This document shows positions 28,922 through 45,981 of a stretch of 64,000 bases of DNA, in pieces. The notes under the pieces are model-generated. The model searched no databases. It was not told where the DNA came from and saw only the letters and a list, made by a program, of their open reading frames with translations. The DNA is from Bradyrhizobium sp. JYMT SZCCT0180 (GTDB lineage: Bacteria; Pseudomonadota; Alphaproteobacteria; Rhizobiales; Xanthobacteraceae). Location: the NCBI RefSeq assembly GCF_018130165.1, contig NZ_JAFCLZ010000006.1, positions 62,001 to 126,000 on the forward strand, read 5' to 3'. The position numbers were made by a program, and so were the translations under genes. Within the stretch, counting starts at the first letter, position 1; each line of letters opens with the position of its first letter.

Positions 28922-28988
28922 CGTGTGACATACCCAGGCTCGCTATTGTCGACATGCAAGCGCGTTCCGGTTGCCTCCTCGGTCCGGT

Positions 28989-31145
28989 TCAGCGACACGA
29001 GATCAGCGCATCGAGCGCCAAGACACCCTCGCCTTCCGCGAACACGATCAGTGGATTGACGTCAATCTCGCTGACTTCCGGATGGGCGCGGACGAAGGAG
29101 CCGAGCATGCTGACCGCCGACACGAGGGCATCGATATCCCGAACTGGCTTTCCGCGAAAAGGACCGAGCAACGCGGCTCCCTTCAACGCACGCAGGGCGG
29201 CCTTGATTTCATCTGCTGTAGCGTCTGCCGGCAGGACGCGCACATCCTTCAGCGCCTCGGCAAGAATTCCGCCGAGCCCAACCACCAGCACCGGCCCCCA
29301 TTCAGGATCGGTCCGTGCCCCCAGAATCAACTCAAGTCCCGCGCCGGACATCCGTTCGACCAGCACGCCGTCGATCGGGAGTTCGGCAGCGGCACCAAGG
29401 TTGCGGTACAACCTATCCCATCCCGAGCGCAATTCCTCTTCGTTAGCGAGATTGAGAACGACCCCTCCGACCTCCGTCTTGTGCGGTAGCGCAGCGGATT
29501 GAATTTTCAGGGCCACGGGATAACCGATTGCGCGAGCAGCAGACGCAGCAGCCTCGACATCGGCGACCAGGCGTCGCGCAGGCATTGGCAATCCGGCCTG
29601 TTCGAGAATATCCTTCGCCGCGTATTCCGGAATTATGCCGACCGGCAGGCGCTTGGATACCTCGATCTCCTCGGACAAAGCCGAATTACGAACGTTCGAG
29701 TCGGCCCATCGTGCATAGCGCGCAAGCGCACGGACCGCTCTTTCAGGCGACCGAAAGAATGGAACGCCGGCCTCGCGAACGGCAGTTATGATTTCTCCCG
29801 GAATTTGAGTTTCGTCACCAAGCATTGCAAACAAGACCGCACGCCTTTTCGACCAGTGACGCAGAGCCTCCAGCACGGGCGGCATCTTGCGCGACGCCAT
29901 TTGCGAACTGGAAAGAATGATCGTCACCAGCAGGCTGCCGCAGTCCGGATGCGCCATCAGATCTTCAAGAGCGCGCATATAGAGCCCGGGATCAACCAAG
30001 GCTTGCGCTGTAAGGTCGAGAGGATTGCTGGCCACAATAAAGCCCGGGGCGACCGCGTTGAGCCGAGTGGCGGCCTCGCCTGTGGGCTGGGGCAGCGGAA
30101 CACCGAGCGTCTCGCAATAGTCTAGCGCGATTGCCTTGTAAGCGCCGGATTCGCCAAGAATGGCTACGCCGCCGAACGGTCGGTGTGCGCAGCGCATCAC
30201 GCAGTCGGAAATGTCGATGAGCTCCTCGAGCGTCTCGACGATCATGACGCCTGCGCGCTCCACGATCGCCTGCATGACCTCGTAGTCGCCGGTCAGGGCT
30301 CCCGTGTGCGTCCGCGCCGATTCCCGCGCTGCGCCCGAGCGGCCGGGATGAAGCATAACCAACACGACGCCAAGAGCCCTCGCACGCCTGGCCAATTCGA
30401 GAAACTCGCGCGGCCTTCGAATATGCTCGACGACCATCGCAATCGCGCGGGTCTGACCGGTCTTGAGCGCATACGCGATAAAATCCTCGATGCCATTGGC
30501 TGCTTCGTTCCCGGTCGAAATCGAAACGGATACATTTAGGGCGCGACTGTCCAGGGCCGCCCGAACGACGGCCGCCATGGCGCCGCTCTGGGAAATCACA
30601 GCGATCCCAGGTCCGGTCATCGGACGCGGTTCGGCCACCGCAAAGGTCAGGGCGACGCCATCCGCATCATTGACGAAGCCGAGACAATTCGGCCCCTCAA
30701 TAGCGATGTTGTTCGAACGCGCGATGGCCGCAATTTCGTCCTGAGCCGCCCTGCCTTCGGCACCAAGCTCGGCAAAACCGGCGGAAAAAATCACGATGCC
30801 GCCGACACCGCGCTCTGCACAGCCCTTGACCGCATCAAGTACCGCCGCAGCGGGGATCGCAAGAACCACGCAATCGACGCCGTAAGGCAACTCCGACGCG
30901 TGCTTTACGCAGGACCGCCCGCGAATTCTGGCCTGCTTGGGATGAAGCAGATGGATATCGCCAGAGAACGCAAAGCGCTCAAGATTGTCGAGAACAATGG
31001 CGGCCAGTGATCCGGGTGTCGCTGAAACTCCGGCGATCGCCACCGACCGAGGATTAAGCAAACGCTCTATAGGCGATCGCTGCGGTAAGTCCCGGTCGTA
31101 CGAGCTCTCGGATGCAGTCGACTTGGTCACTGTCGCATTCTCCAA
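28989..31145 (-). CDS. ADP-forming acyl/aryl-CoA ligase (acetate-CoA ligase family)
   Basis: A 718-residue fused enzyme making CoA esters with ATP to ADP. The CoA-binding domain opens RLLNPRSVAIAGVSATPGSL; the ligase domains contain IEGPNCLGFVN and the phosphohistidine loop ARTHTGALTGDYEVMQ; the C-terminal third is an ATP-grasp domain (YPVALKIQSAALPHKTEVGG, then GLGGILAEALKDVRVLP). The apparent start is TTG at 31145, 18 bp after the hydratase-lyase stop; a GTG at 31130 with a better-spaced GGAG is also possible. With a hydroxycinnamoyl-CoA lyase homologue beside it, it probably supplies the lyase with its CoA ester. Ligases of this type serve feruloyl-CoA synthesis in other proteobacteria. 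Confidence 0.9.
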   Translation of the reverse strand: MENATVTKSTASESSYDRDLPQRSPIERLLNPRSVAIAGVSATPGSLAAIVLDNLERFAFSGDIHLLHPKQARIRGRSCVKHASELPYGVDCVVLAIPAAAVLDAVKGCAERGVGGIVIFSAGFAELGAEGRAAQDEIAAIARSNNIAIEGPNCLGFVNDADGVALTFAVAEPRPMTGPGIAVISQSGAMAAVVRAALDSRALNVSVSISTGNEAANGIEDFIAYALKTGQTRAIAMVVEHIRRPREFLELARRARALGVVLVMLHPGRSGAARESARTHTGALTGDYEVMQAIVERAGVMIVETLEELIDISDCVMRCAHRPFGGVAILGESGAYKAIALDYCETLGVPLPQPTGEAATRLNAVAPGFIVASNPLDLTAQALVDPGLYMRALEDLMAHPDCGSLLVTIILSSSQMASRKMPPVLEALRHWSKRRAVLFAMLGDETQIPGEIITAVREAGVPFFRSPERAVRALARYARWADSNVRNSALSEEIEVSKRLPVGIIPEYAAKDILEQAGLPMPARRLVADVEAAASAARAIGYPVALKIQSAALPHKTEVGGVVLNLANEEELRSGWDRLYRNLGAAAELPIDGVLVERMSGAGLELILGARTDPEWGPVLVVGLGGILAEALKDVRVLPADATADEIKAALRALKGAALLGPFRGKPVRDIDALVSAVSMLGSFVRAHPEVSEIDVNPLIVFAEGEGVLALDALISCR

Positions 31146-31163
31146 CGAAACCGCTCTTAGCGA

Positions 31164-32006
31164 TCAGCGTGGATAGTTATCGAGGCCGGGCTTGTACGAT
31201 TTCTCGTCAAGAAACTGACCCATACCCTTCGCGCGTCCTCGCTCCGGGTCGACCATGGTGGTCTGGTCAAGCTTAGCCGTAAGATATTCTGCAGATTCTT
31301 CCCAAGTCATTTCCCGGACGAATTTGTACGAGTTTTTTGCCGCACGCAGCACCGTCGGATTCTTTGCGAGCAGTGTCTTGGCCAACTCACGGGTGCGACC
31401 CATCAGCTGGTCGGACGGTACGGACTCGTTGACGAGCCCCATCTCTACCGCGGCCTTTCCGCCGAACTGCTCGCCAGTCATGATGTAGTAAAGTGACTTG
31501 CGATCGTTCACGAGCGTCGAGAGTGCCTTCGGAACAACACCACCAGGGATGATTCCCCAATTGATCTCGGAAAGCCCGAACACAGCCTCGTCCGCGGCAA
31601 TGGCGAGGTCACAGCAGACCAGTGGCGTAAATGCACCGCCAAAGCACCAACCATTGACCATAGCGATGGTAGGTTTGCCGTAGAACATCAGTTTACGCCA
31701 CTGCCAATTGCGAGTTTCCCGATACGCCCGATGCCTTTCGATATCGGGCTTGTTATCGGTTGCCCGGAAAAAATCCTTCAGATCCATGCCGGCTGAAAAC
31801 GCATCTCCCTCGCCGGTCAGAACAACGACGCCACAGCGATCGTCGAGTTCCAGTTCGTCAAGCACCTGATTCATCTCGGTGGCCATCGCCACACTCATCG
31901 CGTTGCGTTTGCCCGGACGATTGAGCTTCAACCACGCAATCCCGTCGTCAAACTCAACCTTCACGTTCTCTCCGCCTGGAGCCGGTCGGTGATTTTGAGC
32001 GGTCAT
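31164..32006 (-). CDS. Hydroxycinnamoyl-CoA hydratase-lyase (HCHL) homologue with altered phenol-binding residues
   Basis: A 280-residue crotonase-fold protein, co-linear with feruloyl-CoA hydratase-lyase of Pseudomonas (276 residues). Shared stretches include MVNGWCFGG, FGLSEINWGI, SLYYIMTG and the C-terminal MGQFLDEKSYKPGL. The catalytic glutamate is kept (E147, HCHL E143). However, the two tyrosines that hold the substrate 4-hydroxyl in HCHL are F79 (Tyr75) and T243 (Tyr239), and Ser123 is T127. HCHL cleaves 4-hydroxycinnamoyl-CoA to an aldehyde plus acetyl-CoA; these changes suggest a different side chain here. The ATG at 32006 has AAGGA eight bases before it; one at 32015 overlaps that site. 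It is first in the operon facing MarR. Confidence 0.88.
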   Translation of the reverse strand: MTAQNHRPAPGGENVKVEFDDGIAWLKLNRPGKRNAMSVAMATEMNQVLDELELDDRCGVVVLTGEGDAFSAGMDLKDFFRATDNKPDIERHRAYRETRNWQWRKLMFYGKPTIAMVNGWCFGGAFTPLVCCDLAIAADEAVFGLSEINWGIIPGGVVPKALSTLVNDRKSLYYIMTGEQFGGKAAVEMGLVNESVPSDQLMGRTRELAKTLLAKNPTVLRAAKNSYKFVREMTWEESAEYLTAKLDQTTMVDPERGRAKGMGQFLDEKSYKPGLDNYPR

Positions 32007-32146
32007 TTCGAGCATCCTTTGATTGCGGACATTTGGATCGCGTAGAGGTGAACGATAATTCGACCAGCGCCAGCGACGCTGGACACCACCCCGCCAATGT
32101 CGTCAATGGGGACCCGCTGTGGGCCACAACTGCCGTCATAATGACA

Positions 32147-32182
32147 GGTTGCCTTATATAAGGTAACCTTCCATATTGGAAG
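32147..32182. promoter_or_regulatory. Candidate MarR operators
   Basis: Positions 32147-32168 form a 22-bp inverted repeat with one mismatched pair, around the core CCTTATATAAGG flanked by GGTT and AACC. A second repeat, CTTCC-ATATT-GGAAG, follows at 32168-32182. Both are between the MarR start (32206) and the leftward hydratase-lyase (32006), the expected place for MarR repression of both genes. Confidence 0.6.
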
Positions 32183-32205
32183 CTACTCGTCAATAGGGAA
32201 CGTAC

Positions 32206-32643
32206 GTGACAAAGTCATCATCGTCGCACGCTGGAACGTTGTATCTTATGCATGTGCTGACGCATGCCACGCGCACAAGACTCGACGAAGCACTGCGCCC
32301 CCTGGAGCTATCGTCCTTTCACTACACAATTCTAAGCGTATTGGCGCATAATGCCGGACTATCGTCGGCGCGGCTTTCGCGGAGGTTCTATGTAACGCCA
32401 CAGGCGATGGGAGAAATCATACAATTACTGGAACGAAAGGGCCTGATCGAACGTCGCGAGGATCCGTCGAACAAGAGGGCGATGCTCCTGAGCCTGACGA
32501 AGGTGGGAGAGGCAGCGTGCCAGCGAGGCGATATTATCGTATCGAAGCTTGAGCAAACGATTTTTGAAGGCCAATCGAAATCGAAACTCGATTTGCTGCG
32601 ATCGGTCCTGACGACGGCTCTCGCCGCGCTCGGCGAAAGGTAG
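32206..32643 (+). CDS. MarR-family transcriptional regulator
   Basis: A 145-residue winged-helix regulator. The DNA-binding core is YTILSVLAHNAGLSSARLSR, RFYVTPQAMGEIIQLLERKG and LIERREDPSNKRAMLLSLTK, the wing with the usual DxRxxxxxLT-like pattern. The start is GTG. It is divergent from the CoA ligase / hydratase-lyase operon, and two inverted repeats lie just before it. In Rhodopseudomonas the MarR protein CouR represses p-coumarate genes and is released by p-coumaroyl-CoA; an analogous role with a CoA ester of the local pathway is inferred. Confidence 0.92.
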   Translation: MTKSSSSHAGTLYLMHVLTHATRTRLDEALRPLELSSFHYTILSVLAHNAGLSSARLSRRFYVTPQAMGEIIQLLERKGLIERREDPSNKRAMLLSLTKVGEAACQRGDIIVSKLEQTIFEGQSKSKLDLLRSVLTTALAALGER

Positions 32644-33633: not shown

Positions 33634-34674
33634 TTAGTAGTTGGTCCCGGATGTTTCATTCGGGATGCCGTCGATGGGGCATTCAGCAGTGCCCGCGGTC
33701 GGGCGGGTCATCGCCTCGACCATTTCGCGGGTGCCTTCGGGATCGGCGATCCATTTCGAGTAGAAGTCGTAGGGGCATGTCGCCAGGCCCTTGGCGCTTT
33801 CGCCGGAATTGATCATGCCGGTGTAGCCGCGATGCACCAGCTTGTAGAGATGGTTCTGCGACTGGTTGGTGCGGCGGGCGTCGCGGATCAGGTTCTTCGA
33901 CAGCGCCGCATACTGGATGCCGTATTCCTCTTCGCCGGTCTCGCCCAGCGTGCGGCCATCGAAGCCGATGATCGCGGAGTGGCCGAAATAGGAATAGACG
34001 CCGTCAAAGCCGGCGGCATTGGCGACCGCCACATAGACATTGTTGGCCCAAGCCATCGCCTTGGAAATCAGGATCTGCTGTTCCTTGGCCGGATACATGT
34101 AGCCCTGGCAGCGCACGATCAGTTCCGCGCCCTTCATGGCGCAATCGCGCCAGATTTCCGGAAAATTGCCGTCGTCGCAGATGATCAGGCTGACCTTCAT
34201 GCCCTTTGGTCCGTCGGAAACGTAAGTGCAGTTGCCGGGATACCAGCCTTCGATCGGCACCCACGGCATGATCTTACGGTACTTCTGGACAATCTCGCCC
34301 TTGTCGTTCATCAGAATCAGGGTGTTGTAGGGCGCCTTGTGCGGATGCTCCTCGTGACGCTCGCCGGTGAGCGAGAACACGCCCCACACTTTCGCCTTGC
34401 GGCAGGCTTCGGCGAAGATCGCGGTTTCCTCGCCGGGCACGACGGATGCGGTCTCGTACATCTCCTTGGAGTCGTACATGATGCCGTGGGTGGAATATTC
34501 CGGGAAGATCACCAGATCCATGCCCGGCAGGCCGAGCTTCATGCCCACCACCATGTCGGCGATCTTGCGGGCGTTGTCGAGCACCTCCGCCTTGGTGTGC
34601 AGGCGCGGCATTTTGTAGTTGACGACGGCGACGCCGACCGTGTCGTTGCTCGAGGAAATGTCACCGTGAAGCAT
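33634..34674 (-). CDS. amiE: Aliphatic amidase (acylamide amidohydrolase)
   Basis: A 346-residue nitrilase-fold enzyme that hydrolyses short aliphatic amides such as acetamide to acid and ammonia in the cytoplasm. The sequence follows Pseudomonas aeruginosa AmiE almost throughout, with the same length and the same catalytic numbering: E59 (FPEYSTHG), K134 (QKYRKIMPW) and C166 ([13 protein letters not shown]). A GGAGGGG site precedes the ATG. It is last of a leftward run urtA-urtB-urtC-urtD-urtE-fmdA-fmdB-amiE. With formamidase and an amide/urea importer it forms a route for nitrogen from short amides. Confidence 0.97.
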
Positions 34675-34718: not shown

Positions 34719-35060
34719 TCAGTGGCTGATCATCCACGGCCGCGCGGTCGGGAAACTCTTGGCGCCGCTTCTTGTCCTGGTCACCAGCCGCGCCGGTTTC
34801 TTGCTTGAACAGCAGCCGCAGCCGGGACCATGCGAGGCCTTGTACTGATCGAGGGTTTTGGGCGCGTTGGCGCTGCGCTCGTTGGTGGCATGGGCCTTGC
34901 GCTTGTCCGACGGCATGCAGAAGAACGCCGGCGCGGTCAGGATCACGCGCGGCGATTCGGTTTCGCATTGCGGGCAATCCTGCGGCGCATCGCATTCGGC
35001 CATCGGCCGCATGTCGGTGAACGGGCCGCAATCGTTGCAGAGATATTCGTAAACCGGCAT
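34719..35060 (-). CDS. fmdB: FmdB-family zinc-ribbon protein
   Basis: The start at 35060 (GAGGA site eight bases upstream) gives 113 residues beginning MPVYEYLCNDCG, the standard FmdB opening. Two CxxC pairs, CNDC and CPQC, make a zinc ribbon; a cysteine-rich GPGCGCCSSKK tail follows. In Methylophilus, FmdB was named as a putative regulator of the formamidase operon; a direct role in transcription is not established. It lies between fmdA and amiE in the same orientation, consistent with the classical fmd arrangement. Confidence 0.9.
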   Translation of the reverse strand: MPVYEYLCNDCGPFTDMRPMAECDAPQDCPQCETESPRVILTAPAFFCMPSDKRKAHATNERSANAPKTLDQYKASHGPGCGCCSSKKPARLVTRTRSGAKSFPTARPWMISH

Positions 35061-35144
35061 TTCAATATCCTCGCGCAAATAGCACGCGACGATGGATGCG
35101 GGGCGGCAGATACACACACCGTCCCGCATCCCGTCGCGCAGGGA

Positions 35145-36374
35145 TTACTTGTCCTGTGACAGCGGCATCTGGATGTCGCCCTTGATGTGTTTGATCGGTC
35201 CCGCCGACGACGGCATGATGTCGAAGTCGAAGATCTCGGTCGGCAGCCACAGCGTGGCGCAGGCGTTCGGCACGTCGACGACGCCGGAGATGTGGCCCTG
35301 GCACGGCGCCGTGCCCAGGATGGAATAGGCCTGTGCGCCGGAATAGCCGAACTTCTTCAGGTACTCGATCGCGTTCAGGCAGGCCTGCCGGTAAGCGATG
35401 TGTACGTCGAGGTAGTGCTGCTTACCTTGCTCGTCGACCGAGATGCCTTCGAAGATCAGGTAGTCCTTGTAGTTCGGCGTGATCGGCGACGGCTTGAACA
35501 AGGGGTTCTTGATGCCGTACTTGGCGACGCCGTCCTTGATGAGATCAACCTTGATGTGCAGCCAGCCGGCCATTTCGATCGCGCCGCAGAAGGTGATCTC
35601 GCCATCGCCTTGGCTGAAATGCAGATCGCCCATCGAGAGACCGGCACCGGGCACATAGACCGGGAAGTAGATTTTCGAGCCGCGCGACAGGTCCTTGATG
35701 TCGCAATTGCCGCCATGTTCGCGCGGCGGCACGGTGCGGGCGCCCTCCGCGGCGATCTTGGCCTTGGCGTCGCCCTTGGCCTGACCGGCATGCGTGGTCG
35801 GCGCGAATGGTGGGTTGGCCAATCCGGGTACGCGGGTCGGGTTGGTTGCGATCAGCTCGGCTTCACGCGCGTTCCAGGTCGCCAGCATCTTCGGATCGGG
35901 CAGGCAGCCGATCAGGCCGGGGTGAATGAGCCCCGCGAAATTGACGCCGGGAATGTGGCGCGACGACGTGTAAAGACCCTTGATGTCCCAGATCGATTTC
36001 TGCGCCAGCGGGAAGTGATCGGTCAGGAAGCCGCCGCCGTTCTTCTTGGAGAAGAAGCCGTTGAAACCCCACAGGCTCTCCTTCAGCGGACCGACGTCGA
36101 GCAGATCGACTACCAGCAGATCGCCGGGCTCGGCGCCCTTGACGCCGATCGGGCCGGACAGGAAGTGCACGATCGACAGATCGATATCGCGCACGTCGTC
36201 GGCCGAATCGTTGTTCTTGATGAAGCCGCCGGTCCAGTCGACGGTTTCGATGATGAAGTCGTCGCCGGGGCTGACCCATTCCACGATCGGGATCTCGGGG
36301 TGCCAGCGGTTGTGGATCTTGTCGTTTTCGTAGGCCGATTTCGAAAGATCGACCTTGATCAGTGTATCTGGCAT
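35145..36374 (-). CDS. fmdA: Formamidase
   Basis: A 409-residue member of the acetamidase/formamidase family, hydrolysing formamide to formate and ammonia. From the ATG at 36374 (GGGGAG site) it reads MPDTLIKVDLSKSAYENDKI; further segments include HNRWHPEIPIVEWVSPGDDF, GPIGVKGAEPGDLLVVDLLD, FPGVNFAGLIHPG-like, PVYVPGAGLSMGDLHFSQGD and HYLDVHIAYRQACLNAIEYL. Length and content match FmdA of methylotrophs and rhizobia. The start gives a 39-bp gap to urtE upstream in transcription order. It shares the amide importer with amiE. Confidence 0.95.
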   Translation of the reverse strand: MPDTLIKVDLSKSAYENDKIHNRWHPEIPIVEWVSPGDDFIIETVDWTGGFIKNNDSADDVRDIDLSIVHFLSGPIGVKGAEPGDLLVVDLLDVGPLKESLWGFNGFFSKKNGGGFLTDHFPLAQKSIWDIKGLYTSSRHIPGVNFAGLIHPGLIGCLPDPKMLATWNAREAELIATNPTRVPGLANPPFAPTTHAGQAKGDAKAKIAAEGARTVPPREHGGNCDIKDLSRGSKIYFPVYVPGAGLSMGDLHFSQGDGEITFCGAIEMAGWLHIKVDLIKDGVAKYGIKNPLFKPSPITPNYKDYLIFEGISVDEQGKQHYLDVHIAYRQACLNAIEYLKKFGYSGAQAYSILGTAPCQGHISGVVDVPNACATLWLPTEIFDFDIMPSSAGPIKHIKGDIQMPLSQDK

Positions 36375-36412
36375 TGCAAGCTCCCCTTTTCTACAGACTT
36401 GAAGGCTACGGT

Positions 36413-37102
36413 TCAAACGGACAGATATTTCGAGATCTGCGCGGCATCGACGCCGTCGCGCGGGTCATCACGGACGATCTCGCCGTTCTCGATGACAAGC
36501 ACGCGGTCGGCGACATCGAGCGCAAAGCTCAGCACCTGTTCGGAAACCACGATCGACAGGCCACGCTCGTCGCGAATCCGCTTCAGGGTGCGCGCCATGT
36601 CCTTGATGATCGACGGCTGGATGCCTTCGGTCGGCTCGTCCAGCAGCAGCACTTTCGGCTTGGTGGCGAGCGCGCGCGCAATCGCGAGCTGCTGCTGCTG
36701 TCCACCGGAGAGATTGCCGCCGCGGCGGTTCTTCATTTCCAGCAACACCGGAAACAGCTCATAGATGCTGCCCGGGACATCCTTCTCACCGGACACGACG
36801 AGACCGGTCTCGATGTTCTCCTTCACCGTCATGGTGGAGAAGATCATGCGGCCCTGCGGCACGTAGGCGAGGCCCCTGGCGACGCGTTCGTAGCTCGGCA
36901 GTTGGCTCAGTTCCGTGCCTGCCATCGTCACTGAGCCGCTCTTGGCGGGCAGGATGCCCATCAGCGATTTCATCAGCGTGGTCTTGCCCATGCCGTTGCG
37001 GCCCATGATCGCCACAATCTCGTTGGGCGCGACCGACACGTTAAGGCCATGCAGCACCTCGCTCTGGCCGTAGGCGACATGAAGATCAGAAATAGCCAGC
37101 AT
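36413..37102 (-). CDS. urtE: Urea/short-chain amide ABC transporter ATP-binding protein UrtE
   Basis: A 229-residue ATPase. Walker A IMGRNGMGKTTLMKSLMG, signature NLSGGQQQQLAIARALATKP, Walker B LLLDEPTEGIQPSIIKDMAR. The IQPSII variant is typical of UrtE within the LivF-like group. An AGAGGATA site precedes the ATG. It pairs with UrtD, separated by a 75-bp gap that contains a REP-type palindrome. The transporter brings urea and, given the adjacent amidases, probably formamide and acetamide into the cell. Confidence 0.95.
   Translation of the reverse strand: MLAISDLHVAYGQSEVLHGLNVSVAPNEIVAIMGRNGMGKTTLMKSLMGILPAKSGSVTMAGTELSQLPSYERVARGLAYVPQGRMIFSTMTVKENIETGLVVSGEKDVPGSIYELFPVLLEMKNRRGGNLSGGQQQQLAIARALATKPKVLLLDEPTEGIQPSIIKDMARTLKRIRDERGLSIVVSEQVLSFALDVADRVLVIENGEIVRDDPRDGVDAAQISKYLSV

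Positions 37103-37177: not shown

Positions 37178-37178
<1 letters not shown>
37130..37178. repeat. REP-type palindrome between urtD and urtE
   Basis: Outer arms GCGCATGAAC (37130-37139) and GTTCATGCGC (37169-37178) are perfect complements. The interior carries CCGGAAACCGG and a second TTTCCGG. This resembles the common repetitive palindrome of Bradyrhizobium and relatives. The right arm ends on the urtD stop codon. Confidence 0.65.
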
Positions 37179-37916
<738 letters not shown>

Positions 37917-37933
<17 letters not shown>

Positions 37934-38000
37934 GATCTAACTCCTCATTCTGCCGGTGTGGTGACCGATGAGCATGATCTAATTCCTCATTCCGCCGGGG
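37917..38000. repeat. 42-bp tandem duplication over the urtC-urtD junction
   Basis: Units 37917-37958 and 37959-38000 match at 39 of 42 positions. Each carries the reverse complement of a GAGGA-type ribosome site, ATC and an ATG CTC ATC GGT CAC start. The upstream copy (in transcription order) therefore opens a 12-codon frame at 37975 that stops at 37937, three bases before the true urtD ATG. Confidence 0.85.
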
Positions 38001-39135
38001 CGCCGTCGGCGACCGAACTGTCGGTCCACGCCTTGGCGGGTTTTGGTTTGCGCCACGCCAGTAGGCGATCGATGCGAGGCTGGACGTAATCCGCCCAGAT
38101 CCCGGACAAGCCGTTCGGGAACGCCAGCACCACCGCGATGAACAGCCCGCCGAGGCCAAACAGCCAGAGCTGCGGGAAGGATTCAGACAGGCCGGTCTTC
38201 GCGACGTTCACCAGCAGCGAACCCCACACCGCGCCGAAGATCGACATCCGCCCGCCGACCGCGGTGTAGATCACCATCTCGATCGACGGCACGATGCCGA
38301 CAAAGGACGGCGACATGAAACCGACATTGAGCGCGAACATGGCGCCGCCGATCGCGGCGAAGATTGCGGCCATGCAGAAGGCGAAGATCTTGAAGTTGGC
38401 GACGCTGTAGCCGGAGAACCGGACGCGGTCTTCCTGTTCGCGCATCGCCACCAGGATGCGGCCGAGCTTGGTCAGGCGGATGAACTGCGCCAGCAGGATG
38501 CAGCCGAACAGCAGGAACACTTCAAAGAAGTAGAGTATGACCTTGGCGTGATCCGGCCGGATGTCCCACCCCTTCAGGGTGCGCAGGTCGGTCATGCCGT
38601 TGATGCCGCCGGTATAGCCCTGCTGCCCGACGATCAGGATGGTCAGGATGGCCGCAACGGCTTGCGTGATGATCGCAAAATAAGTGCCGCCGACGCGGCG
38701 CTTGAACATCGCGGTGCCGATGATCAGGGCGAACAGGCCGGGCACCAGGATGATGGCGAGAATGGTAAGGGTGAGACTGTGGAACGGTTGCCAGAACAGG
38801 GGCAGTGACGTGATCTGATTCCAGTCCATGAAATCAGGGATGCCGGGGGTGGACTGGATCTTGGTGTTTTCCGGGCTCGACGCCTCGAGCTTGAGGAACA
38901 TCGCCATGCAGTAGCCGCCGAGGCCGAAGAACACCCCCTGCCCCAGACTGAGAATGCCGCCATAACCCCAGCACAGCACCAGCCCGATCCCGACGAAAGC
39001 GTAGGTCAGGTACTTGGCGACCAGATTGAGGCGAAACACATCCAGCGACAGCGGCAGGATCACGAACAGCAGGGCGGCCAGCGCAACGAAACCGATGAGC
39101 TCGGATCGATTGAAGAAGCGTGAGTTGATGATCAT
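37987..39135 (-). CDS. urtC: Urea/short-chain amide ABC transporter permease UrtC
   Basis: A 382-residue LivM-like membrane subunit with about ten hydrophobic segments. Conserved parts: YAFVGIGLVLCWGYGGILSL, GQGVFFGLGGYCMAMFLKLE (the GYCMAM form marks UrtC), MREQEDRVRFSGYSVANFKI, IYTAVGGRMSIFGAVWGSLL. The stop is inside the 42-bp duplication, eleven bases before the decoy ATG. It forms the channel with UrtB, whose gene is 18 bp upstream in transcription order. Confidence 0.95.
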   Translation of the reverse strand: MIINSRFFNRSELIGFVALAALLFVILPLSLDVFRLNLVAKYLTYAFVGIGLVLCWGYGGILSLGQGVFFGLGGYCMAMFLKLEASSPENTKIQSTPGIPDFMDWNQITSLPLFWQPFHSLTLTILAIILVPGLFALIIGTAMFKRRVGGTYFAIITQAVAAILTILIVGQQGYTGGINGMTDLRTLKGWDIRPDHAKVILYFFEVFLLFGCILLAQFIRLTKLGRILVAMREQEDRVRFSGYSVANFKIFAFCMAAIFAAIGGAMFALNVGFMSPSFVGIVPSIEMVIYTAVGGRMSIFGAVWGSLLVNVAKTGLSESFPQLWLFGLGGLFIAVVLAFPNGLSGIWADYVQPRIDRLLAWRKPKPAKAWTDSSVADGAPAE

Positions 39136-39153: not shown

Positions 39154-40080
39154 TTATTTCCGGACCTTGAGGGCGAACAGCCCCTGCGGCCGCAGCATCA
39201 GAATTCCGACAATGGCGAGCAGCGTCAGCACCTTCGCCATAGACCCCGACATGAAGAATTCGAGCGTCGACTGCGTCTGCGAGATGCTGAAGGCCGACGC
39301 GATGGTGCCGAGCAGGCTGGCGGCGCCGCCGAACACGACCACGAGGAAGGTATCGACGATGTAGAGCTGGCCGGAGGTCGGCCCGGTCGAGCCGATCATG
39401 GTGAAGGCGCTGCCGGCGACGCCGGCGATGCCGCAGCCGAGGCCGAAGGTATAGCGATCGACCTTCTCGGTGTTGATGCCGACCGCGCCGGCCATAATGC
39501 GGTTCTGCACGACGGCACGGACCTGGCGGCCCCAGCGCGACTTGTACATGATCCAGGCCACCGCGACCGTGATCAGCACGGTCAGACACATCACGAAGAT
39601 GCCATTGATCGGGACTTCGATGGTGTCGGTGATCTGCTTGGAGCCGAGCATCCATTGCGGCAGCTCGACGCCGACCTCGCGTGCTCCGAATACCGAGCGA
39701 TAGGTCTGCTGCAGGATGAGGCTGAGGCCCCAGGTCGCCAGCAGCGTATCCAGCGGGCGCTTGTAGAGGTGGCGTATCAGCCCCCATTCGACCAGCATGC
39801 CGAGCGCGCCGGAGGCTATGAAAGCGAGCACCATCGCGAGAAAGAAGTAGCCGGGAAACAACGCCGGCAGGTAATGCTGAAAGGCGCTGGAGGTGAGCCA
39901 GGTGACGTAGGCGCCGAGGATCATGAACTCGCCATGCGCCATGTTAATGACGCCCATTTGGCCGAAGATGATCGCAAGACCCAGCGCCATCAGCACATAG
40001 ACGGAAAACAGGATCAGGCCCGCAAAGCCCTGCATGACGAAAATCGAACCGAGATCGCCAATCGAATAGTCGCCGAGCAT
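39154..40080 (-). CDS. urtB: Urea/short-chain amide ABC transporter permease UrtB
   Basis: From the ATG at 40080 (GGAG site) it is 308 residues; an in-frame start at 40119 lacks a good site and runs into the upstream hairpin. LivH-like segments are clear: ALGLAIIFGQMGVINMAHGE, FMILGAYVTWL, RPLDTLLATWGLSLILQQTY, and VVVFGGAASLLGTIASAFSI. The polytopic inner-membrane subunit pairs with UrtC. It is separated from urtA by 136 bp holding a 13-bp-stem hairpin, the only long gap within the transporter genes apart from the urtD-urtE REP. Confidence 0.95.
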   Translation of the reverse strand: MLGDYSIGDLGSIFVMQGFAGLILFSVYVLMALGLAIIFGQMGVINMAHGEFMILGAYVTWLTSSAFQHYLPALFPGYFFLAMVLAFIASGALGMLVEWGLIRHLYKRPLDTLLATWGLSLILQQTYRSVFGAREVGVELPQWMLGSKQITDTIEVPINGIFVMCLTVLITVAVAWIMYKSRWGRQVRAVVQNRIMAGAVGINTEKVDRYTFGLGCGIAGVAGSAFTMIGSTGPTSGQLYIVDTFLVVVFGGAASLLGTIASAFSISQTQSTLEFFMSGSMAKVLTLLAIVGILMLRPQGLFALKVRK

Positions 40081-40103
40081 CGATGTTTCTCCGTGGGGGA
40101 AGT

Positions 40104-40133
40104 CCCGCGTCGCGAGCAAGCTCGCGACGCGGG
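40104..40133. promoter_or_regulatory. Strong hairpin between urtA and urtB
   Basis: Perfect 13-bp arms CCCGCGTCGCGAG (40104-40116) and CTCGCGACGCGGG (40121-40133) with a CAAG loop. It lies after the receptor gene and before the permease. No T-run follows on the minus strand. Such structures often protect the upstream message or partly terminate, raising receptor over membrane subunits; that role is inferred. Confidence 0.75.
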
Positions 40134-40216: not shown

Positions 40217-41476
40217 TTATTGATATCCCTTGGGGAACGGGTCCGGCTGGATCAGGTCGGCGGTCTCGAACACCATGTCGAACTGTCCATCCAGCTTGGC
40301 CTTGCCGACGCGGGTCTTCGACCACAGATGGTGGTTTTCGTGGATCCGGACATAGCCTTCCGGCGCACCCTTGAACTCGATGCCGGGCGAAGCTGCCGCA
40401 ACCTTGTCGACGTCGAAGGAGCCCGCCTTCTCGACGGTCGCTTTCCACAGCCACGGGCCGAGATAAGCTGCCTGTGTCACGTCGCCGATGACAGTCTTGT
40501 CGCCCCACATCTTCTTGAACGCAGTCACGAACTTTTCGTTGTTCTCGTTCTTCAGCGACTGGAAGTACTTCATGCAGGCGTAGGCGCCGGCGATGTTCTC
40601 GCCGCCGATGCCGTCGATCTCGTCCTCGGTCACCGAGATGGTCAGCAGGGTCTGCTTCGACAGGTCGATGCCGGCGGCCTTGAGCTGCTTGTAGAACGCG
40701 ACGTTCGAACCGCCGACGACGTCGGTAAAGATCACGTCGGGCTTGGTCAGCTTCAGCTTGTTGATGACGGAGTTGAACTGGGTGTGGCCGAGCGGAAAGT
40801 ATTCCTCGCCGACGACCTTCAGCTTCAGGAAATTCTCGATGTGCTTGCGCGCGATCTTGTTCGAGGTACGCGGCCAGATGTAGTCGGAGCCGATGAAGTA
40901 GAACGATTTGGCGTTCTTCTCCTTGGTGATCCAGTCGATGCCGGCGAGAATCTGCTGGGTCGCCTCCTGCCCGGTGTAGATCACGTTCTTGGACTGCTCG
41001 AGCCCTTCATAGAAGGTCGGGTAATAGAGCATGCCGTTGTACTGCTCCATGACAGGCAGCACCGCCTTGCGCGACGCCGAGGTCCAGCAGCCCATAATCG
41101 AGGCCACCTTGTCGTTGACCAGCAGCTTCTTGGCCTTCTCCGCGAAAGTCGGCCAGTCGCTGGCGCCGTCTTCCTGGATGACCTTGATCTTGCGGCCAAG
41201 CACACCGCCCATGGCGTTGATCTGCTCGATGGCGAGCTTTTCGGCCTGAATCGAACCGGTTTCGGAGATCGCCATCGTGCCGGTGGCGGAATGCAGGATG
41301 CCGACCGTCACTTCGGTGTCGGTCACGGCCAATCCCGTCGTGTTGACCGCCGCAGTCGGCGGTCCGGCGCCGAATGCCAAGCGCGGCAGCAGCGCCATCG
41401 CCGGCAAGACTGCCGCTCCCATCAGCAGTTTACGTCGCAGCGGAGACTGCAGGCCCCGTTTGATTTCGTTTGACAT
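40217..41476 (-). CDS. urtA: Urea/short-chain amide ABC transporter substrate-binding protein UrtA
   Basis: A 419-residue exported receptor. From the ATG at 41476 it has a twin-arginine-like leader (SPLRRKLLMG, then AAVLPAMALLPRLAFGA). The mature part shows VTVGILHSATGTMAISETGS, EKLAIEQINAMGGVLGRKIK, VIQEDGASDWPTFAEKAKKL, GCWTSASRKAVLPVMEQYNG and GQEATQQILAGIDWI, all characteristic of UrtA/FmdD receptors. It is the first gene of the operon, 214 bp from the divergent sensor kinase; that gap contains inverted and direct repeats. With formamidase and amidase downstream, the ligand set probably includes short amides as well as urea. Confidence 0.96.
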   Translation of the reverse strand: MSNEIKRGLQSPLRRKLLMGAAVLPAMALLPRLAFGAGPPTAAVNTTGLAVTDTEVTVGILHSATGTMAISETGSIQAEKLAIEQINAMGGVLGRKIKVIQEDGASDWPTFAEKAKKLLVNDKVASIMGCWTSASRKAVLPVMEQYNGMLYYPTFYEGLEQSKNVIYTGQEATQQILAGIDWITKEKNAKSFYFIGSDYIWPRTSNKIARKHIENFLKLKVVGEEYFPLGHTQFNSVINKLKLTKPDVIFTDVVGGSNVAFYKQLKAAGIDLSKQTLLTISVTEDEIDGIGGENIAGAYACMKYFQSLKNENNEKFVTAFKKMWGDKTVIGDVTQAAYLGPWLWKATVEKAGSFDVDKVAAASPGIEFKGAPEGYVRIHENHHLWSKTRVGKAKLDGQFDMVFETADLIQPDPFPKGYQ

Positions 41477-41546
41477 GAGCACCCCATTTTGTTCGAGAAC
41501 GCGCTTATTGGTGAGGCAAGCATGCTCAGTTTTGTGCACTGCACAG

Positions 41547-41564
41547 ATACGCAAGATTGCGTAT
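41547..41564. promoter_or_regulatory. Perfect inverted repeat in the urtA/kinase intergenic region
   Basis: ATACGCAAGATTGCGTAT: eight-base arms ATACGCAA and TTGCGTAT around GA. It lies 71 bp upstream of urtA and 127 bp upstream of the kinase start. It is the best candidate for binding by the LuxR-type regulator encoded at 45052-45981; inferred. Confidence 0.6.
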
Positions 41565-41596
41565 ACTGCACCGCAAAATAGCGACGTAGATTTTGG

Positions 41597-41638
41597 TACG
41601 GAGTCTGCGGTACGCGGTTTGCGGTACGCAGATTGCAG
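41597..41638 (+). repeat. Three tandem 14-bp repeats before the sensor kinase
   Basis: TACGGAGTCTGCGG, TACGCGGTTTGCGG and TACGCAGATTGCAG follow each other without gaps. The third closely resembles one half to two thirds of the inverted repeat at 41547 (TACGCAAGATTGCG) with a one-base spacing change. They may be additional, weaker regulator sites. Confidence 0.6.
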
Positions 41639-41690
41639 GGTGTTGGATGAGCCACGAAGGGCTCGGTCGTCAGCGGTCAGGAGCAACAAA

Positions 41691-44600
41691 GTGGCAGGGC
41701 GGCAGCGGATCGACCGCGTCAGGCGCCAATACAATCAATGGGTTGCAAACCAGACGCTGGAAGACTACGCGCTGCGCTTTACCGCCAAGAGCGCACGGCG
41801 ATGGTCCGCCGCCCGCGTCGCCAACACCGCGCTCGGCGCCATCTCGTTCCTGGCGCTGGAAGCCATCGGCGGCACCATTACGCTGAATTACGGCGCTACC
41901 AATGCGGTCGCCGCCATTCTGGTCGTGAGCGTCATCATCTTCCTTTGCGGACTGCCGATTGCCTATCACGCCGCCAAATGCGGCATCGACATCGACCTGC
42001 TGACCCGCGGCGCGGGGTTCGGTTATATCGGTTCGACCATCACGTCGCTGATCTATGCCTCCTTCACCTTCATCTTCTTCGCGCTCGAGGCGGTCATTCT
42101 CGCCAGCGCACTGGAGATGTGCTTTGGCATCCCGCGTCCGATCGGCTATCTCATCAGCGCGGTCGTCATCATTCCGCTGGTGACGTACGGCATCACGCTG
42201 ATCAGCCGCTTCCAACTGTGGACGCAGCCGATCTGGATCATCCTGCACATCCTTCCTTTTGTCGCGATCGCCTACGCCAACCCGCAATCGTTTGCGGAGT
42301 GGCGCAAATTCTCCGGCGAGCATGGCGACGTCGGCGGGAATCTCGATCTGCTATTGTTCGGCACCGCCGCCTCGGTGGTGTTTTCGCTGGTGGCGCAGAT
42401 CGGCGAACAGGTCGACTTCCTGCGGTTCCTGCCGCGCGACCGCCGGACCTCACGGACGTCGTGGTGGATCGCGATGCTCAGCGCCGGCCCCGGCTGGATC
42501 ATCTTTGGCGCGCTAAAACTGCTGTTGGGCTCGTTCCTCGCCTACTTCGCGCTCAGCCACGGCGTTTCCACCGAGCATGCGGCTGAGCCCGCGCACATGT
42601 ATCTCGAAGCGTTCCGTTATGTGCTGTCGCAGCCCGATCTGGTGCTGGCGCTGACCGGCACCTTCGTCATTCTCTCGCAGATCAAGATCAACGTCACCAA
42701 CGCCTATGCCGGCTCGATCGCCTGGTCGAACTTCTTCTCGCGGCTGACCCACAGCCATCCGGGCCGCGTGGTCTGGCTCGTCTTCAACGTGCTGGTCGCG
42801 CTGCTTTTGATGGAAATCGGCGTCTACAAGGCGCTGGAGCAGACGCTGGCGCTTTATTCCAACGTCGCCATCGCCTGGGTCGGCGCGCTGGTCGCCGATC
42901 TCGTGGTCAACAAGCCGCTCGGTCTGCGGCCGCAGCACATCGAGTTCAAGCGCGCGCATCTCTACGATATCAATCCGGTCGGCGTCGGCTCGATGACGAT
43001 CGCGACCATCGTCTCGATCAGCGCGTTCTATGGCCTGTTCGGACCGACGCCGAAGGCGTTGTCGCCGTTCGTCGCGCTCGCCGTCGCCTTTGTCACCGCG
43101 CCTTTGATCGCCTGGGCCACCGACGGCAAATATTACATCGCCCGCAAGCCGAAGCGGAGCTGGCAGAATCTGGAATCGATCCAGTGCTGTATCTGCGAGC
43201 ATTCGTTCGAGCCGGAGGATATGGCCTCCTGCCCGGCCTATGCCGGCCCGATCTGTTCGCTATGCTGTTCGCTGGACGCGCGCTGCCATGATCTCTGCAA
43301 GCCGCATGCGCGGATTCAGGCGCAGGTTTCGGACGCGCTGGCCAAGGCACTGCCTCAGCCGATCTATGCCCGGATCAACTCCCAGGTCGGGCACTATCTC
43401 GGCGTGTTCGTGGTGTCCGCGGGCCTGGTCGGGCTGACGCTCGCGCTGATCTATCTTCAGACGTCGGCGACGATTCCGGTCGACGATCTCCAGCTGTCGG
43501 ACGTGCTGTGGAAGGTGTTCTTCGCTCTGACCATCATTATCGGCGTCGTGGCGTGGCTGTTCGTGCTGGCGCAGCAGAGCCGCCGCGCGGCGGAAGCCGA
43601 AACCCGACGCCAGACCACATTGCTGATTCAGGAAATCGACGCGCACAAGCGTACCGATGCCGAACTGCAGCGTGCCAAGGAGGTCGCCGAATCCGCTAAT
43701 CTGGCCAAGAGCCGCTACGTTGTCGGGTTGAGTCACGAACTGCGTTCACCCCTCAACGCCATAAGTGGCTACGCGCAATTGCTCGAACAGGATTCCAGCC
43801 TGCAGACAAAACCGCGCGATCAGGTGCGCGTGGTCCGCCGCAGCGCAGACCATCTTTCGGGCCTGATCGACGGCATTCTGGACATCTCCAAGATCGAAGC
43901 CGGCCGGTTGTACCTGTCGCGCGACGAGGTGCGGTTGAGCGATTTCCTCGATCAGCTGGTCGGCATGTTCCGCCTGCAAGCCGCCGCCAAGGGTACCGAT
44001 TTTGTCTTCAAGCGGCCGGCGGTGCTGCCGGTCGTGGTCTTTGCCGACGAGAAGCGGCTGCGCCAGATCCTGATCAACCTGTTGTCGAACGCCATCAAGT
44101 TCACCCAGGCCGGCAGCGTGCAGTTCGTGGTGCATTACCGCAGCCCGGTGGCGGAGTTCGAGGTGATCGACACCGGCCCGGGCATTCAGGCCGACGACCT
44201 CGAACGCATTTTCGCGCCGTTCGAACGCGGCGCGCTCGGCGTCTCCCAACCCCAGACCGGAACCGGTCTTGGCCTGACCATCAGCCGGCTGCTGGCCGGC
44301 GTCATGGGCGGCGACATCAAGGTCACCAGCACGGTCGGGACCGGCAGCAACTTCCGCATGAAGATCCTGCTTTCGGAAGTCACCAACCCGACGCGGATCG
44401 CGCCGGTCGGGGCGCCGATCTTCGGCTATCACGGCCCGCGCAAGACGATCCTGATCACCGACGACGATCCGACCCATCGCGATCTCCTGCGCGAGGTCTT
44501 TACGCCGCTCGGCTTCATCTTGCTCAGCGCGCCCGATGGCCCCGGCTGCCTGGAGTTGGCCCAGCATTGCCGGCCCGATCTGTTTCTGCTCGACATCTCG

Positions 44601-45062
44601 ATGGCCGGGATGGACGGCTGGACGATCGCGGAAACCCTGCGCAAGACCGGCCACCATCAGGCGCGCATCCTGATGGTGTCGGCGAGCGCACTGGAGGCGC
44701 ATGGCGCGCCGCTGGCGCAGCCCTTCCACGACGGCTACCTGATGAAGCCGATCGATATTCCGCGGCTGCTGGAAACCATTCGCCAATTACTCAAGCTCGA
44801 CTGGGAATATGAGGTCGACCAGATCGCCGTTCCGAGCTGGAAGCCCGAGACCGGCTCGCGGCCGTCGGTGAAGCACGTCGAGGAACTCATCGGACTCGGG
44901 AAATTGGGTTACATCCGCGCCATCCAGCTCAAGCTCGAGGAGATCGGCAACGATCACCCCGAACATTCCGACTTCGTCACCCAAATGCGCGCCCTGATCG
45001 ATCGCTTCGATCTCGATCAATACATGGCGACCCTGAAGACGTTGCACAGCTATGATCATTGA
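41691..45062 (+). CDS. NCS1-transporter / Cys-rich linker / hybrid sensor histidine kinase fusion
   Basis: The GTG at 41691 has an AGGAGC site and gives 1,123 residues. Residues 1-490 are an NCS1 (cytosine/uracil/allantoin/hydantoin permease) domain with about twelve membrane segments, opening QWVANQTLEDYALRFTAKSA. A linker at 499-536 has nine cysteines (CC-x-C-x11-C-x7-C-xx-CC-x5-C-x3-C), a likely metal site. Two further membrane segments (565-590, 605-627) follow, then a HisKA domain with H682 (GLSHELRSPLNA), an ATPase domain (N-box NLLSNAIKF, DTGPG, GTGLGL) and a receiver with D968 and K1019. It is divergent from the urt/fmd/ami operon and overlaps the response regulator by 11 bases. A transporter-coupled sensor of an amide or ureide is inferred, by analogy with CbrA-type kinases. 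Confidence 0.92.
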   Translation: MAGRQRIDRVRRQYNQWVANQTLEDYALRFTAKSARRWSAARVANTALGAISFLALEAIGGTITLNYGATNAVAAILVVSVIIFLCGLPIAYHAAKCGIDIDLLTRGAGFGYIGSTITSLIYASFTFIFFALEAVILASALEMCFGIPRPIGYLISAVVIIPLVTYGITLISRFQLWTQPIWIILHILPFVAIAYANPQSFAEWRKFSGEHGDVGGNLDLLLFGTAASVVFSLVAQIGEQVDFLRFLPRDRRTSRTSWWIAMLSAGPGWIIFGALKLLLGSFLAYFALSHGVSTEHAAEPAHMYLEAFRYVLSQPDLVLALTGTFVILSQIKINVTNAYAGSIAWSNFFSRLTHSHPGRVVWLVFNVLVALLLMEIGVYKALEQTLALYSNVAIAWVGALVADLVVNKPLGLRPQHIEFKRAHLYDINPVGVGSMTIATIVSISAFYGLFGPTPKALSPFVALAVAFVTAPLIAWATDGKYYIARKPKRSWQNLESIQCCICEHSFEPEDMASCPAYAGPICSLCCSLDARCHDLCKPHARIQAQVSDALAKALPQPIYARINSQVGHYLGVFVVSAGLVGLTLALIYLQTSATIPVDDLQLSDVLWKVFFALTIIIGVVAWLFVLAQQSRRAAEAETRRQTTLLIQEIDAHKRTDAELQRAKEVAESANLAKSRYVVGLSHELRSPLNAISGYAQLLEQDSSLQTKPRDQVRVVRRSADHLSGLIDGILDISKIEAGRLYLSRDEVRLSDFLDQLVGMFRLQAAAKGTDFVFKRPAVLPVVVFADEKRLRQILINLLSNAIKFTQAGSVQFVVHYRSPVAEFEVIDTGPGIQADDLERIFAPFERGALGVSQPQTGTGLGLTISRLLAGVMGGDIKVTSTVGTGSNFRMKILLSEVTNPTRIAPVGAPIFGYHGPRKTILITDDDPTHRDLLREVFTPLGFILLSAPDGPGCLELAQHCRPDLFLLDISMAGMDGWTIAETLRKTGHHQARILMVSASALEAHGAPLAQPFHDGYLMKPIDIPRLLETIRQLLKLDWEYEVDQIAVPSWKPETGSRPSVKHVEELIGLGKLGYIRAIQLKLEEIGNDHPEHSDFVTQMRALIDRFDLDQYMATLKTLHSYDH

Positions 45063-45981
45063 ACAAAAAAAGCGCGACGTCGCCCTCGTCGTCGACGATT
45101 CCCCGGAAACCCTGCGGCTGCTCACCGACGCGCTCGATGGCGCGGGCATGACGGTCATGGTCGCTCTCGACGGCGCCTCGGCGATGCGGATCGTCGATCA
45201 GATCACGCCTGACATCGTGCTGCTCGACGCCGTGATGCCCGGCATGGACGGATTTGAGACCTGCAAACGGCTGAAACGCGATGCGGGTCTCGTCAACGTT
45301 CCCATCATCTTCATGACCGGCCTTGCAGAAACCGAACACATCGTCCGCGGGCTGGAGGCCGGCGGCGTGGATTACGTGACAAAACCGATCGCGATCGAGG
45401 AGATGCTGGCGCGGATTCGGGTGCACCTCGCCAATGCCCGGCTGACCCAGAGCGCCCGCGCCGCACTCGACGTCTCCGGCCGCTATCTGCTCGCCGTGAA
45501 CGGCGTCGGCAAGATCATGTGGGCGACGCCGCAGGCGCAGAAGCTGTTATCGGATACGCTTAGCGCCGACGCCGACGACAATTTCGTGCTGCCGGATCCG
45601 ATGCCGCAATGGCTGGAACAGGTGCAGAAGGGCAAGGCCGGGTCGAAGGCGTCGGTGATGGCAGCGTTCCCCGGCAACGAGCTGCTCAAGCTGCAATATA
45701 TGGGCAAGCTCGGGCCGAACGAGTTCCTGCTGCGGCTCGCCAAGGATTCCGGCGCCGATACGCCGGCGGAGTTCTCCAGCGAATTGGGACTGACCACGCG
45801 CGAGGGCGAGGTTCTGTCGTGGCTGTCGAAAGGAAAGACCAATCGCGACATCGCGCAAATTCTAGGCCTCTCGCCCCGCACCGTCGACAAGCATCTCGAG
45901 CAGATCTATTCCAAGCTCGGCGTCGAGAACCGCACCGCGGCGGCTGCGATCGCGGTCAATGCGAAGAATCTGAAGAGCTGA
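45052..45981 (+). CDS. Response regulator, receiver plus LuxR-type HTH
   Basis: A 309-residue regulator. The receiver (about 8-125) has acidic residues D15 and D16, phosphorylation site D59 (IVLLDAVMPGMDGFETCKRL), T89 and K111. A linker of about 110 residues, possibly PAS-like (SGRYLLAVNGVGKIMWATPQ), leads to a LuxR/FixJ helix-turn-helix at 243-305 (LTTREGEVLSWLSKGKTNRD, then LSPRTVDKHLEQIYSKLGVE). Its ATG is within the last codons of the kinase gene, so they are coupled partners. The probable targets are the urt operon and its own promoter. Confidence 0.93.
   Translation: MIIEQKKRDVALVVDDSPETLRLLTDALDGAGMTVMVALDGASAMRIVDQITPDIVLLDAVMPGMDGFETCKRLKRDAGLVNVPIIFMTGLAETEHIVRGLEAGGVDYVTKPIAIEEMLARIRVHLANARLTQSARAALDVSGRYLLAVNGVGKIMWATPQAQKLLSDTLSADADDNFVLPDPMPQWLEQVQKGKAGSKASVMAAFPGNELLKLQYMGKLGPNEFLLRLAKDSGADTPAEFSSELGLTTREGEVLSWLSKGKTNRDIAQILGLSPRTVDKHLEQIYSKLGVENRTAAAAIAVNAKNLKS

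Follow-up and report, generated by a model that had tools for sequence, protein, structure and literature searches.

A permease-histidine kinase fusion facing a urt-fmd-ami operon in Bradyrhizobium, a candidate sensor of short-chain amides

The window analysed here is a stretch of 64,000 nucleotides from Bradyrhizobium sp. JYMT SZCCT0180 (contig NZ_JAFCLZ010000006.1, positions 62,001 to 126,000), in which a single gene joins an N-terminal NCS1-type permease domain to a hybrid histidine kinase. This gene overlaps the gene of a LuxR-type response regulator, and the pair is divergent from a urtABCDE-fmdA-fmdB-amiE operon for the uptake and hydrolysis of amides or urea. Comparison of sequences established the architecture of the protein, its membership of a family with a single origin, its conserved linkage to urea and amide genes, its paralogy with stand-alone permeases and the co-occurrence of a palindromic operator with the kinase/LuxR pair.

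The fusion protein and its partner

The gene pair, the domains of the fusion and the palindrome in front of it lie at the following positions of the window:
41547-41564, no strand: candidate operator ATACGCAAGATTGCGTAT, a perfect 8-bp inverted repeat with a 2-bp spacer in the urtA-kinase gap, found by aligning 70 gaps of the Bradyrhizobium group
41691-45062, forward strand: NCS1-type permease / hybrid histidine kinase fusion, 1123 aa, GTG start, frame open, full length conserved in the phylum
41691-43151, forward strand: NCS1-type permease domain, aa 1-487, with 12 hydrophobic segments (hydropathy), aligned to an NCS1 protein by hhalign, 41-45% identity to stand-alone permeases
43185-43298, forward strand: Cys-rich cytoplasmic tail, aa 499-536, nine Cys, the same module in a stand-alone permease
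43395-43571, forward strand: two extra membrane segments, aa 569-587 and 609-627 (hydropathy)
43707-43904, forward strand: HisKA domain, aa 673-738, with H682 (Pfam PF00512)
44046-44369, forward strand: HATPase_c domain, aa 786-893 (Pfam PF02518)
44448-44783, forward strand: receiver domain, aa 920-1031, with D968 (Pfam PF00072)
45052-45981, forward strand: LuxR/NarL-type response regulator, 309 aa, receiver with D59 and GerE (Pfam PF00072, PF00196)

The initial annotation had placed transporter, kinase and receiver in one protein of 1,123 residues, and this architecture stands. The frame is uninterrupted from 41691 to 45062, an AGGAG motif resembling a Shine-Dalgarno sequence lies at 41679-41683 ahead of the GTG start, and the full-length fusion is conserved in about 30% of the genomes sampled at the level of Hyphomicrobiales and 16% of those at the level of Pseudomonadota, so it is no frame accident, and an artefact joining separate transporter and kinase genes was rejected. 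Two genomes of the Bradyrhizobium group show the fusion as two adjacent matches, split at residue 903 (G005:C1:8451789-8455156) or near residue 525-531 (G034:C96:1956-5317), which reflects a frameshift, an assembly error or a real split. The combination of HisKA, HATPase_c and receiver domains with the catalytic residues H682 and D968 identifies the C-terminal half as a hybrid kinase, and the partner, with its receiver carrying the phospho-Asp D59 and a GerE helix-turn-helix domain, is a LuxR/NarL-type regulator. All three residues had been noticed initially, as had the overlap of the two genes, which measures 11 nt. An Hpt domain at the C-terminal tail of the fusion was considered and found unsupported, as the tail is without a conserved His.

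That the N-terminal part is a full NCS1-type transporter had also been proposed. Pfam gave no direct match in residues 1-630, PF02133 included, so the NCS1 label needed a test, and the kinship rests on an intermediate, the 497-aa stand-alone relative L195, which exceeds the PF02133 gathering score and is aligned with the fusion profile by hhalign at 99.9% probability (E 2.9e-32, 440 columns). The claim thus stands on the 12 hydrophobic segments and on probable kinship through L195, and not on a direct PF02133 match. Hydropathy places the Cys module after the 12 segments and then two further segments, as initially noticed, and from the segment count both the Cys module and the kinase are predicted to be cytoplasmic. 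A profile search of the PDB with the permease domain matched no transporter.

Nine Cys are found at aa 499-536, the number counted initially, and eight of them are invariant in 65 relatives. The description of this region as a linker can be refined: the nearest stand-alone permease already carries the module, making it an inherited cytoplasmic tail of the permease. The complete eight-Cys module occurs in a stand-alone permease of Methylovirgula, and a CxxC...CSLC tail ends the stand-alones of Acinetobacter, Klebsiella, Moraxella and Streptomyces. A search for the module as a separate sensor domain in other kinases found it only in this family at the sensitivity used. Across fusions and stand-alones, 73 columns of the permease domain are near-invariant, and a few conserved columns are altered in nearly all fusions, among them F57 in the first segment, whose change to E is a candidate for uncoupling transport. 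The sole residues that separate formamide-linked from urea-linked fusions are positions 129 and 231, both weakly.

The facing operon, its linkage to the fusion and the shared palindrome

All members of the facing operon score above the cut-offs of curated NCBIfam models, which bears out the divergent arrangement described initially:
40217-41476, reverse strand: urtA-type substrate-binding protein (TIGR03407 above cut-off), likely ATG at 41476, the listed 505-aa open reading frame starting too early
39154-40119, reverse strand: urtB-type permease (TIGR03409)
37987-39135, reverse strand: urtC-type permease (TIGR03408)
37178-37933, reverse strand: urtD-type ATPase (TIGR03411)
36413-37102, reverse strand: urtE-type ATPase (TIGR03410)
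35145-36416, reverse strand: fmdA formamidase (NF045496, 756 bits against a cut-off of 500)
34719-35129, reverse strand: fmdB-type zinc-ribbon protein (RPWMISH/FmdB; NF053663, TIGR02605)
33634-34674, reverse strand: amiE aliphatic amidase (NF009802)

With the urtA ATG at 41476, the gap to the kinase gene (41477-41690) measures 214 bp. The importer is of the UrtABCDE type, with urea or formamide as candidate substrate. Besides this UrtA, two more in the genome exceed the cut-off and a third narrowly misses it (L280-L282; G000:C1, C13, C19), and its only clear urease lies beside another Urt copy. Since urease and that Urt copy are encoded elsewhere, while the search with NF045496 found the only clear FmdA of the genome in the facing operon, formamide or a short amide (formamide/acetamide) appears likelier than urea as the ligand in this genome.

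The fusion was found in 96 of 297 genomes at the level of the order (Hyphomicrobiales, a few weak NCS1 hits counted in), in 22/289 at class level and in 65/397 at the level of the phylum Pseudomonadota, and relatives occur on 520 plasmid records, mostly from Klebsiella. About 340 Klebsiella plasmid records carry the fusion, which some of them label ArcB, and the one read in detail (L254) has a divergent urtABCDE with a formamidase. Within the Bradyrhizobium group, the adjacency of kinase and urt genes is general, as the Urt-Fmd set is kept at 76 of 80 loci; three of the exceptions end at contig ends and one has lost urt-fmd. At this last locus (L023:8656-14280) urtABCDE-fmdA-fmdB is gone together with the palindrome, kinase and regulator remain, and amiE faces the kinase.

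Outside Bradyrhizobium, 94 loci were picked by sequence and not by context, and 91 of them have UrtA-E, urease or FmdA within approximately 10 kb, the identities of UrtA, UrtB and UreC being checked on examples with NCBIfam models. An fmd-type Urt is faced by 41 loci (40 with FmdA), a canonical Urt is present in 34 (10 with urease genes), urease alone in nine, and FmdA alone in seven, which have a shorter, receiver-less form of the fusion without a LuxR gene. A quick maximum-likelihood tree placed all fusions in one clade (98*) with the stand-alones outside, the receiver-less form deepest within the clade, and nine switches of operon type along the tree. Judging from these relatives, the fusions have a single origin and are widespread in Pseudomonadota, and the mix of linked genes together with the nine switches would fit a single class of ligands, namely urea and short amides, within which specificity has shifted. 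In the deepest form (L136, L173-L178), which has neither receiver nor LuxR gene, a second protein and then FmdA follow on the same strand; in L173 the second protein is of the receiver-HisKA-HATPase type and resembles CckA/VirA-like kinases.

The 18-bp palindrome ATACGCAAGATTGCGTAT is single-copy in the 8.04-Mb genome, and no strict palindrome occurs in the stretches with the other Urt copies of this genome. A loose form was found in 79 of 80 Bradyrhizobium-group loci. In 48/98 loci the strict form of the family, TACGY-N6-RCGTA, lies no more than 500 bp upstream of the kinase gene; shuffled sequences would give about 0.1 such loci, and the rate elsewhere is 0.0046 per 500 bp. Among 20 loose-form hits elsewhere in the loci, 13 are located at the start of a urtA, fmdA or amiE that forms a separate unit, as in Sinorhizobium meliloti, where the loose form precedes urtA at 8 kb from the kinase. 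Summing the counts upstream of the kinase and elsewhere, the operator form stands ahead of kinase, urtA, fmdA or amiE in 59/91 kinase/LuxR loci, although these loci share ancestry, so that the counts do not represent independent events. Urease-type loci are without the strict form, some having a GC-richer variant with one mismatch. The operator was found in none of the seven receiver-less loci without a LuxR gene. In 26 genomes of the order that lack the kinase, it is absent from all 28 urtA genes, with a one-mismatch match in two cases. The FmdA model that scores in this genome found no FmdA in 35 kinase-free genomes. Comparison of the loci argues strongly that the palindrome tracks the kinase/LuxR pair as a shared putative operator.

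Beyond amiE, positions 26522-32643 of the window hold genes for a molybdopterin-type dehydrogenase, an acyl-CoA synthetase-like protein, a p-hydroxycinnamoyl-CoA hydratase/lyase and a MarR protein, and look like a hydroxycinnamate degradation cluster adjoining the amide operon.

Sister permeases, proposed mechanism and alternatives

The closer stand-alone permeases from Acinetobacter, Streptomyces and Arthrobacter share 41-45% identity with the fusion over about 520 residues; further ones occur in Klebsiella, Moraxella, Tsukamurella and Methylovirgula. The closest are annotated as allantoin or cytosine permeases or as hypothetical proteins. Their neighbourhoods suggest another solute: the stand-alone permease heads a urease operon in A. 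johnsonii and sits after ureDABCE-ureG in K. pneumoniae (the urease operons of L257 and L259), adjoins fmdA in two cases (L260, L264) and lies within amiE-ATPase-acs in another (L263). The Streptomyces and Arthrobacter stand-alones have no urease, formamidase or amidase neighbour at their loci. In Methylovirgula, fmdB-fmdA, kinase-regulator and stand-alone permease follow each other, with amiE further on and no Urt, and in Acinetobacter baumannii the kinase-regulator pair is divergent from its own stand-alone paralogue, with the operator between them. The permeases annotated for cytosine or allantoin in urease, formamidase and amidase operons are thus likely to be carriers of urea or amides. 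In a more distant NCS1 branch (L195:9449-14484; L252:6001-11065; L253:5998-9094), the permease genes accompany nitrilase-type C-N hydrolases with AmiC-like and ANTAR (AmiR-like) proteins, or an amidase, in what are apparently amide operons with a permease replacing the ABC importer. As a lead only to a possible member of the stand-alone clade, the 'cytosine permease' MSMEG_3402 and the formamidase MSMEG_3403 of M. smegmatis appear together in nitrogen-starvation sets (PMC4222082; PMC4617892).

The initial annotation had suggested that the NCS1-type domain could respond to a ligand resembling an amide or ureide, or to its flux, and turn on the facing operon, and the phylum-wide linkage to urt, urease and fmd genes, the sister permeases and the shared palindrome are all consistent with this proposal. 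We consider it probable that fusion and regulator form a two-component system of the transceptor type, which responds to short-chain amides (formamide/acetamide in this genome, urea in many relatives) and activates the facing operon. Its N-terminal domain would derive from an NCS1-family urea/amide permease converted to a sensor. As Pfam detected no PAS or other known sensor domain in the fusion, the membrane part and the Cys tail are left as sensor. Binding of the ligand, or the conformational cycle of a permease that may retain residual transport, would be signalled to the kinase by way of the Cys tail, the two extra segments and a coiled stretch, and the kinase would phosphorylate the regulator encoded by the overlapping gene directly or via its own receiver. 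The phosphorylated regulator would then bind the palindrome at 41547-41564 and activate, rather than repress, urtABCDE-fmdA-fmdB-amiE and possibly its own operon. With somewhat less confidence, we favour the wider view of a separate, undescribed lineage of transceptor kinases, in which a urea/amide NCS1 clade underwent duplication and a single fusion to a kinase, the permease core serving as sensor and the kinase controlling, through one operator across Pseudomonadota, alternative importers and hydrolases of the same solute and, in A. baumannii, its own stand-alone paralogue.

Several observations weigh against this reading. The strict operator is missing in 32 of the 91 kinase/LuxR loci, some of which have a one-mismatch form, and three of the 94 loci outside Bradyrhizobium (L184, L186, L220) have no urt, urease or fmd genes nearby. 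One of these, L184, nevertheless keeps the palindrome upstream, which makes targets elsewhere in that genome likely. An AlphaFold2 model of aa 1-664, built with 46 close, near-identical relatives, reached a pLDDT of only 40.5, so that neither a fold of the LeuT type nor a binding site could be read from it. Finally, the SLC5 precedent CbrA reportedly perceives its signal independently of its permease domain (cited in PMC9100948), and the permease of the NCS1 fusion may therefore not be the sensor either. That precedent, together with the invariance of the eight Cys in the fusions, would fit a Cys-rich tail that is itself the sensor, through metal or thiol chemistry, on a permease that anchors or localises the kinase. 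We regard this as unlikely, because the same tail is present in kinase-free stand-alones and hence belongs to the function of the permease, because in some stand-alones most of the Cys of this tail have disappeared, and because the 73 near-invariant permease columns would be needless in a mere anchor. It is quite improbable that the kinase instead monitors the transport activity of the facing ABC importer, for example as ligand-loaded UrtA docking on the permease domain: in most loci the kinase gene and urtA lie side by side in divergent orientation, but the domain stays conserved where the locus has only a formamidase, a urease or a stand-alone permease and no urtA.

A response to general nitrogen status, with the palindrome belonging to a different nitrogen regulator, would account for target genes that are all nitrogen-scavenging. 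The palindrome is, however, absent at the 28 urtA genes of kinase-free genomes and in the seven loci without the LuxR regulator, and it is single-copy here despite the further Urt copies, which leaves this explanation very improbable. NCS1 proteins commonly carry nucleobases or hydantoins, and distant relatives adjoin hydantoinase-like genes, so the fused permease might mainly be a working importer of such solutes with an incidental linkage to amide genes. Given that linkage in 91 of 94 loci and the amide or urease genes beside the closest stand-alones, we find this hardly credible. The preferred reading remains that of a transceptor for short-chain amides and urea.

Comparison with known systems

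The initial annotation knew of no characterised NCS1-fused kinase for amides, and we likewise found no description of any NCS1-fused kinase in the open-licence literature; one genome paper names a hybrid kinase and a LuxR gene next to a second Urt operon but makes no mention of a permease domain (PMC13296017). The target genes are the same as in Pseudomonas veronii Yu15, for which no regulator was described and in which urtABCDE-fmdA-fmdB-amiE is associated with the use of formamide and acetamide as sole nitrogen source, Urt being proposed as the formamide importer (PMC13209695). In the AmiC/AmiR system of aliphatic amidase, the ligand is sensed by AmiC, and AmiR acts as an antiterminator (PMC13209695). 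The common point is an amide-responsive switch of amide hydrolysis, but the sensor of the NCS1 fusion is membrane-bound and would signal through a kinase, and an AmiC/AmiR-like pair was found instead with the distant stand-alone permease L195. With NCS1 permeases (PF02133) the fusion shares probable homology through L195-type proteins and the 12 hydrophobic segments, whereas the fusions and the stand-alones of urease and amidase operons form a separate clade with a Cys tail.

Transporter-fused kinases have been called rare, and the characterised ones that we found are SLC5 fusions. The SLC5/STAC kinases CbrA, CrbS, RpuS and PrlS resemble the NCS1 fusion in that a complete permease precedes the histidine kinase in the same protein. 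CbrA, CrbS and RpuS also control the transport or use of a related solute, as is proposed for the NCS1 fusion (PMC13022988; PMC9100948; PMC5715377). CrbS and RpuS are hybrid kinases with a C-terminal receiver and a LuxR-type partner, a layout found in the NCS1 fusion as well; RpuS controls the pyruvate permease MctP, and CrbR depends on an imperfect inverted repeat ahead of its target genes (PMC9100948; PMC5715377). Pfam found no SSF (SLC5) domain in the fusion, whose permease is linked to PF02133 instead, and no STAC match in aa 488-672, the presence of a STAC model in that Pfam copy being unchecked. The Cys-rich tail and the two membrane segments occupy the place where STAC would be, the putative targets are genes for amides and urea, and the operator has a different sequence. 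With a permease from another family and no SLC5 or PAS domain detected, the NCS1 fusion is, as far as its domains indicate, analogous to the SLC5/STAC family and not a member of it. Through its recognition, the urea and formamide genes of many soil bacteria and of Klebsiella plasmids would gain a regulator, an operator and likely ligands, and urea or amides become the suggested solutes of a clade whose members are labelled cytosine/allantoin permeases. A second such family, widespread and drawn from a different transporter superfamily, would show that permeases were converted to sensors repeatedly, and would provide an independent case for separating the general mechanism of such kinases from what is specific to SLC5.

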